Source of the DNA: Halorubrum ruber | Lineage (GTDB): Archaea > Halobacteriota > Halobacteria > Halobacteriales > Haloferacaceae | Reading direction: 5' to 3' | DNA length: 64,000 bases | Assembly (NCBI RefSeq): GCF_018228765.1 | Contig: NZ_CP073695.1 | Span: forward strand, 2,837,218-2,901,217 | Made by a program: the position numbers and the translations under genes | Notes under the pieces: model-generated | The model's input: the letters and a program-made list of their open reading frames with translations, nothing else | Database searches by the model: none | Told to the model about the DNA's origin: nothing | In this document: positions 9,855 through 11,520 of the stretch, piece after piece | Position numbering within the stretch: position 1 is the stretch's first letter | Layout: the number at the start of each line of letters is the position of its first letter

Positions 9855-10303
9855 TCACACCGAGCGACGACCGAGAGAACGTCCCCCACCTGCCCCTCCA
9901 GCGTCGACCGCGAACCCCAGCGCCTGGTAGAACCCGGTTAGGTCGGCGTCGAAGGTCGCGGTGACGACCGCGACCGCGGGGTCGGACTCCCCCGGCGGAC
10001 CGCGGCCGCGACGAGCGCCGAGCCGATCCCCCGACCGCGTCGCGCTCGCCTGACCGCGACGGCGTCGACGTGAAGCCGGTCGGGGTCGGGTCGCACGGCG
10101 AGCAGCGCGCCGACGACCCCGCCGGTTCTCGTCGAGCGCGCGACGAGCGCGTCTCCGGCCGCGATCCGGTCGTCGACGGCGTCCGCGTCGGTCTCCAGCA
10201 TCGCCGCGTCGAGGATTCGGAGGACGTCGAGGCGGTCGTCGGAGGTCGCGGGCTCGACGGTCACGTCCGCGGGCGGATCGGGGAGATCGTGATCTCCGGT
10301 CAC
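9855..10303 (-). pseudogene. GNAT-family N-acetyltransferase, frameshifted near the C-terminus
   Basis: The GTG start at 10303 overlaps the stop of the SAMP2-like gene (GTGA), so the genes are coupled. Residues 1-106 give a normal GNAT fold: VTVEPATSDDRLDVLRIL, then LHVDAVAVRRARRGRGIGSA with the acetyl-CoA-binding RGRGIG signature. The frame is then lost in a run of G on the coding strand near 9980-9990. In the next frame the expected C-terminus appears (VAVVTATFDADLTGFYQALG), ending at 9855. One missing G restores a protein of about 149 residues, typical for the family. Substrate unknown. Either a sequencing error or a true frameshift. Confidence 0.7.
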
Positions 10304-10533
10304 GCGTCGGGGTCCGTCTCGCCGGCGTCCGTCGCGCCGCCCTTTATCAGCCGGAGGACACGGACCCGCTCGGCGTCGACGACGCGGTCGCCGGGGACCG
10401 GCGATCCGTCGACCAGCGCCGACGCCTCCTGCGGGTGGTAGCCCGCGGCGCGGATCAGGTCGTCGTACGTCGCGTCGGCGGCGAGGCTGTACTCCTCGCT
10501 CCCTTCGCCGACGACCTCGACGGTCACGTCCAT
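10300..10533 (-). CDS. SAMP2-like ubiquitin-fold small modifier protein with a C-terminal extension
   Basis: A 77-residue beta-grasp protein. MDVTVEVVGEGSEEYSLA and VLVDGSPVPGD-type segments match SAMP2/ThiS-MoaD-like haloarchaeal modifiers, which are activated by the E1-like UbaA for protein conjugation and for thiolation of tRNA. Characterised SAMP2 ends exactly in a diglycine (RLIKGG). Here LRLIKGG is present at about 59-65 but 12 more residues follow (ATDAGETDPDA). The protein could conjugate only after cleavage behind the diglycine. The GNAT gene starts inside its stop codon. Confidence 0.8.
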   Translation of the reverse strand: MDVTVEVVGEGSEEYSLAADATYDDLIRAAGYHPQEASALVDGSPVPGDRVVDAERVRVLRLIKGGATDAGETDPDA

Positions 10534-10984: not shown

Positions 10985-11520
10985 GGCTGTTTATAAGCGA
11001 ACAACGACGCTGCGATGAACACCTCCAAAGCCCCAGCCGCTCACTTATAAATGACTGAACGTAGAACGGCGGTGAACACCTCCAAAGCCCCAGCCGCTCG
11101 TTTATAAATAATTGACCGGAGATCAACGGAGAACACCTCCCAATTCCCAGCCGCTCGTTTATAAATGATTGATCGGAGATCAACGGAGAACACCTCCCAA
11201 TTCCCAGCCGCTCGGTTATAGATGATTGACCGGAGATCGACGGAGAACACCTCCAAAGCCCCAGCCGCGAGGGCTCGGTGCGCTCGCTGCGCGCCTCGGT
11301 CGCTCACTCCGTTCGCTCCCTCGGTGCTTACGTCGCGCGCCTTCGCCCTCGCGGCTGCCCCTTTGAGTCCCACCCCGCACAGCACCGCCCCGCACCTCAC
11401 GCCTCCCCAGCCTCGTCGGTGGTCCTCCGCTTCGCTCCGGACCACCGACTCCCTCGCGCGTGCGACTCGCGGCCTTCGGCCGCTCGTCGGCACGCGCCGA
11501 CCGCGTCGTTCTTTATAAGT
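10985..11520 (-). repeat. Composite structured intergenic element, copy B (five tail units)
   Basis: On the minus strand the core runs from about 11520 to 11262 and the tail from about 11270 to 10985. The core has the complement of GAGGCTGGGGAGGCGTGAGG near 11395-11415 and of GGGACTCAAAGGGGCAG near 11354-11370, plus a hairpin at about 11420-11455. The main stem is CAGCCGCGAGGGC (11262-11274) with GCCCTCGCGGCTG (11345-11357). Five tail units follow at 57-58 bp spacing, with TATA-like boxes near 10990, 11044, 11101, 11159 and 11216. With flanking sequence it fills the 700 bp between gatB and the small membrane gene. Open frames across it only translate the repeats. Confidence 0.75.

Follow-up and report, generated by a model that had tools for sequence, protein, structure and literature searches.

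Haloarchaeal SAMPs are known chiefly from Haloferax volcanii, whose JAMM1 has been described as a deconjugating enzyme. Eukaryotes encode ubiquitin with a tail or fused to a ribosomal protein, and the added part has to be cut off after GG, mainly by cysteine proteases. Among archaea, JAMM cleavage is already known for a linear SAMP1 fusion and for the SAMP precursors of Caldiarchaeum subterraneum. HvJAMM1 cuts linear SAMP1-MoaE precisely behind GG in vitro, with cleavage in vivo dependent on jamm1, the internal GG of Ubl-MoaE fusions is argued to be closed to thiocarboxylation, and natural archaeal Ubl-MoaE fusions are placed in Crenarchaeota (PMC4443979), while CsJAMM cleaves the C. subterraneum precursors in vitro (PMC6043591). 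In H. volcanii both SAMP2 and UbaA matter for tRNA-Lys thiolation (PMC4048286), and a SAMP2-GNAT gene neighborhood (arCOG00535 with arCOG04721) occurs in Halobacteria (Makarova and Koonin 2010, PMC2948915), the accessible portion of the latter paper making no mention of precursors, tails, or a SAMP2-GNAT fusion. A search of the open literature, with subscription papers mostly outside it, found no report of haloarchaeal SAMP2 tails or of SAMP2 fusions to GNAT or redoxin.

The SAMP2 locus of Halorubrum ruber compares with these systems as follows: i) relative to eukaryotic ubiquitin, the protease proposed for SAMP2 is a JAMM metalloprotease, and the fused partners differ; ii) H. volcanii SAMP2 (HVO_0202; PDB 2l32, 2lji, 4hrs) belongs to the same family, matches the core over its full length, and shares the LRLIKGG core end, but whereas the SAMP2 family model has 66 positions and ends in GG, the H. 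ruber gene encodes 11 more residues; iii) C. subterraneum Csub_C0702 and Csub_C1603, together with CsJAMM, likewise pair a SAMP precursor with a SAMP-system JAMM protease, but there cleavage was demonstrated in vitro (PMC6043591), whereas for haloarchaeal SAMP2 it is deduced, would be genus-wide, and would include natural GNAT and redoxin fusions; and iv) SAMP1-MoaE resembles the H. ruber protein in carrying a linear extension after GG, where a haloarchaeal desampylase cuts it, but the Haloferax fusion is engineered (PMC4443979), whereas the haloarchaeal SAMP2 fusions are natural and have other partners.

The SAMP2 gene and its partners in Halorubrum ruber

The window, by which we mean the whole 64,000-nucleotide stretch of H. 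ruber DNA analyzed, encodes a SAMP2 protein reading MDVTVEVV...VRVLRLIKGG, then ATDAGETDPDA, and then a TGA stop (Table 1). LRLIKGG occupies residues 60-66, i.e. the diglycine closes the ubiquitin-like domain, and the primary product extends 11 residues beyond it. The protein matches Pfam SAMP2 (PF21965) with 98.2 bits against a cut-off of 27 and the NCBIfam SAMP2 equivalog (NF041919) with 102.4 bits against a cut-off of 70, the latter over model positions 1-66 of 66, and H. volcanii SAMP2 (PDB 2l32) aligns with it across residues 1-67. This is the single SAMP2 match in the 3.02 Mb genome, where a second copy was sought and none was found.

Table 1. Positions of the SAMP2 locus features in the window, and of the desampylase gene elsewhere in the genome.
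Feature	Coordinates	Strand	Basis
SAMP2 ORF including tail	10533-10300	minus	translation
SAMP2 core, 66 codons, ending in LRLIKGG	10336..10533	minus	Pfam and NCBIfam matches, PDB 2l32 alignment
Diglycine codons of SAMP2 core	10341-10336	minus	
C-terminal tail, 11 codons (ATDAGETDPDA), proposed disposable propeptide	10303..10335	minus	translation, relatives, codon-position comparison
GTGA overlap of SAMP2 stop TGA (10302-10300) and GNAT start GTG (10303-10301)	10300..10303	minus	
GNAT acetyltransferase ORF, downstream of and overlapping SAMP2, frameshift-shortened	9938..10303	minus	domain search, comparison with relatives
Stretch with one-base deletion that, compared with five relatives, shifts the GNAT frame	9979..10000	minus	
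JAMM1-type desampylase	C1:828378-828803		NCBIfam NF041370 (HvJAMM1 type)

The genome also encodes a JAMM1, which scores 160.8 bits against the NCBIfam haloarchaeal desampylase model NF041370 (cut-off 130) and has an intact HxHx10D metal motif (HSHPAGPARPSETD from residue 84), along with a second, JAMM2-like protein and a weaker third JAMM match. A UbaA-like E1 (ThiF/UbaA-like match, 274 bits) and an NcsA homolog (TIGR00269, 91.1 bits joined, cut-off 62.75) are present as well. Judging from gene content, the single SAMP2, the UbaA-like E1, and the NcsA homolog suggest that SAMP2 serves its customary functions.

The GNAT gene next to SAMP2 is missing a base in a short C run, with loss of the C-terminal part of the protein; this frameshift may mark a true pseudogene or stem from a sequencing error.

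SAMP2 tails throughout Halorubrum

SAMP2 was found in 49 of the 52 genomes of the genus, and every one of these genes, all of which were read, continues past the diglycine, more than chance would give: 47 have short tails of 2-25 residues, and 2 are in-frame GNAT fusions (155 and 170 residues). In-frame insertions, for example ATDGDA and ATDGDATDGDA, distinguish the tails; that of Halorubrum sp. Atlit-26R (L031) also has 11 residues, and the aligned neighbors L003, L002, L005, and L007 have the same frame and the same GTGA overlap as the window. Since SAMP2 is matched once per genome throughout the genus, no GG-ending copy substitutes for the tailed one. The apparent one-base deletion in the adjoining GNAT might suggest that a sequencing or assembly error had erased a stop codon behind the GG, but independent genomes show the same open frame and overlap, which refutes an error at the tail, and we give this explanation practically no weight.

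The initial annotation had read LRLIKGG, the tail, and the overlapping stop in a frame intact up to that stop; translation bears this out, and the frame is kept in the five relatives just named, although its title counted 12 residues past the diglycine, one too many. It had also looked to orthologs. None of the 49 read in the genus ends at GG, and of the conserved extension it envisaged, the position and open frame are conserved but the tail sequence is not.

A GTGA stop-start overlap ends 46 of the 47 short-tailed genes, as might be expected if selection for translational coupling to GNAT had displaced the SAMP2 stop and the tail residues were a by-product; the apparent lack of constraint on the tail sequence (see below) also favors this idea. 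In genus g21, however, SAMP2 ends GG-ATGA without a tail, and the GNAT match in L090 starts exactly at that ATG; coupling thus needs no tail, and g21 rules it out as a complete explanation. Ten tailed genes, moreover, have no detected GNAT or redoxin neighbor. We regard coupling as possible though doubtful, and it concerns the origin of the tail; a protease to expose the GG is still needed.

Tail sequence and the RLxxGG motif

In 54 close within-genus pairs, which are not independent of one another, the rates of difference per site at the first, second, and third codon positions are 0.264, 0.305, and 0.159 in the tail, as against 0.044, 0.041, and 0.144 in the core. A sequence-specific role for the tail, as the main reading, was rejected on the strength of the faster change at tail codon positions 1 and 2 than at position 3. 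RLxxGG is intact in 105/105 tailed SAMP2 genes, the 22 fusions among them, and the residue directly after GG is Ala or Ser in 76 of the 105. That the motif stays intact though internal points to cleavage after GG, and a tail that evolves as if unconstrained behind a retained RLxxGG fits a disposable propeptide.

Alternatively, the tail might act as a propeptide that inhibits or regulates SAMP2 until a controlled cleavage removes it: by blocking activation it could serve as a switch, and in Haloferax an enzyme is reactivated when SAMP1-MoaE is cleaved (PMC4443979). We consider this quite unlikely, however, in a genus where tails vary so widely in length and are not conserved in sequence. It is very unlikely that SAMP2 is no longer activated at its diglycine and works as an unprocessed domain; the primary product does lack a GG end, but the retention of RLxxGG in every tailed gene and fusion, the encoded UbaA-like and NcsA-like partners, and the single SAMP2 match in each genome of the genus all argue against it.

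Natural SAMP2 fusions

Fusions make up 22 of the 240 SAMP2 genes read, 14 to GNAT and 8 to redoxin. SAMP2-GNAT is in frame in Halorubrum sp. 48-1-W (L053) and the uncultured archaeon A07HR67 (L049), which enter the counts as L081 and L080, and in all 12 genomes of the 12-species genus g18; SAMP2 is fused to an AhpC/TSA-like redoxin in genera g15, g17, and g28 of the host family and in g44 of family f17. Both fusion domains exceed their Pfam cut-offs in the five fusions examined, and the L235 partner is a redoxin by sequence. Because the gene order is SAMP2, redoxin, GNAT wherever both neighbors were found, the fusions join SAMP2 to the next gene. In the structure predicted for the L053 fusion, the SAMP2 domain has block-mean pLDDT values of 92-97, the GG and linker lie within low-confidence residues 65-87, and the GNAT part is poor (mean pLDDT 66.8, pTM 0.39); the prediction agrees with a flexible SAMP2-GNAT junction and should be taken no further.

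In many haloarchaea a CxxC-type AhpC/TSA-like redoxin gene lies between SAMP2 and GNAT or directly behind SAMP2 (L056, L076, L154-L160, L171, L173), and this redoxin may work together with the sulfur carrier SAMP2.

Co-occurrence of tails with JAMM1

The 240 genes read were drawn from two sources. In the host family, 154 of 170 genomes have a SAMP2 match, and 150 were read (G064, G105, G106, and G107 were left out). Outside the family, the order sample contributed 40 genomes with JAMM1 and 50 of its 106 without it; the 40 JAMM1-bearing genomes and 20 of the JAMM1-less ones were chosen among the matches listed and spread over genera, and JAMM1-less here means absent among the positives listed for the desampylase model. 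The 39 named loci L031-L069 were kept out of the counts because many duplicate species of the numbered genomes.

Of the 177 genomes with JAMM1, 104 have a SAMP2 that runs on past GG; of the 63 without, only 1 does. The lone exception, G129, combines a SAMP2-GNAT fusion with no detected JAMM1, a point against the involvement of JAMM1, in an assembly that is 79% complete. When genomes are grouped into genus-by-JAMM1-state units, tails are present in 20/50 units with JAMM1 and 0/23 without (1/24 including G129), for a Fisher p of 0.0001 (0.0008 including G129); permuting JAMM1 status within families gives p = 0.0075 (0.025 including G129). These statistics allow for shared ancestry through genus units and within-family permutation, not through a species tree, and the association is partly phylogenetic, since many JAMM1-less genomes sit in family f4. 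Gene neighborhood was tested as a confounding factor, and the association persisted among loci with a same-strand GNAT or redoxin neighbor (tails in 94/149 with JAMM1 vs 1/54 without).

JAMM1 was found in 153 of the 170 genomes of the host family. Within this family, SAMP2 has no residue beyond GG in any of the genes read from the JAMM1-less genera g8, g12, and g14 and from two g23 genomes. With 73 genomes having JAMM1 and no tail, JAMM1 allows tails without requiring them; in the split genera g92, g63, and g54 of family f7, tails are absent with or without JAMM1, so that these genera carry no information on the link.

Another protease, or general peptidases, might trim the tail, with JAMM1 a bystander that tends to co-occur: the H. 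ruber genome does encode the second and third JAMM-like proteins, and carboxypeptidases could presumably deal with tails of two or three residues. We think this unlikely, however, because family genomes with only the weaker JAMM2-like match are tail-less in 12 of 13 cases, the exception again being the incomplete G129, and because general trimming would hardly halt at GG in fusions of 125-220 residues.

The desampylase model matches 279 of the 392 genomes of the order sample; the desampylase is absent from the other 113, including whole genera, while SAMP2 is present in 386/392. With SAMP2 nearly universal, desampylation by JAMM1 appears to be dispensable in many lineages.

A precursor model for SAMP2

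Our main reading, to which we assign a probability of roughly 80%, is that SAMP2 is made as a precursor, that JAMM1 cuts it after GG, that genes running on past the GG are tolerated, and that such lineages depend on the protease. Specifically, i) SAMP2 would be translated with 11 disposable residues beyond its diglycine; ii) a JAMM1-type desampylase would hydrolyze the peptide bond after GG; iii) the freed glycine would be adenylated by the E1-like UbaA for subsequent tRNA thiolation and protein conjugation; iv) SAMP2 genes would have extended into the next gene, either by a GTGA overlap, as in Halorubrum, or by outright fusion to GNAT or redoxin; and v) lineages with tailed or fused SAMP2 would come to depend on JAMM1. 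Loss of the original stop would be tolerated because the desampylase cuts after GG whatever comes next, and this tolerance would have let SAMP2 genes run into their neighbors. Given a single SAMP2, E1 and NcsA partners, and an internal GG presumably closed to thiocarboxylation, JAMM1 cleavage would be the first step of the pathway in Halorubrum.

The genomes themselves show a tail throughout the genus, fusions, retention of RLxxGG, a tail sequence free of apparent constraint, and an association of tails with the JAMM1 gene. From the co-occurrence with JAMM1 and the published HvJAMM1 activity, we infer cleavage after GG in the cell, JAMM1 as its agent, and dependence on the protease. The initial annotation had weighed a precursor whose tail must be removed against a protein that is not a modifier, and had thought of a JAMM/MPN+ protease as the enzyme that might cut it; with tails genus-wide, such a protease encoded in the genome, and tails found almost only where it is present, the evidence favors the precursor.

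Should precursor synthesis of SAMP2 hold for much of the family, JAMM1 would have a maturation role besides deconjugation, and such a role predicts that JAMM1 cannot be lost in Halorubrum, though it is absent from many other haloarchaea. Going further, SAMP precursor maturation could be one of the chief jobs of the haloarchaeal desampylase, and could have given evolutionary licence for tails and fusions in lineages that then became dependent on the protease; we regard the odds of this broader proposal as about even. If it is true, SAMP2, and in shorter form SAMP1-type proteins, lost the stop behind GG and captured neighboring genes, and the fusions are a prokaryotic counterpart of ubiquitin-ribosomal protein fusions, yielding equal quantities of modifier and partner. 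The naturally fused SAMP2-GNAT and SAMP2-redoxin proteins would be ready substrates, and name two candidate co-workers of SAMP2. Recombinant or tagged Halorubrum SAMP2 would best be designed with GG as its end.

Additional observations

Short tails are not confined to SAMP2. A motif search of 30 chosen genomes for SAMP1-type loci (L284-L313) found 1-6 residues after GG in 10 of 30; no SAMP1-type tail was found in the genome of the window or in the two JAMM1-less genomes of this set. In the Haloferax-type genus g9, 4 of the 15 SAMP2 genes read stop two residues past GG (RA, RD, or RS), and most end at GG; loci with such two-residue tails are L060, L123, L124, L174, and L179. Finally, a tandem repeat of 4.4 copies of a 57-base unit (88% matches) lies at 11017-11268 of the window, between the SAMP2 region and the next gene.
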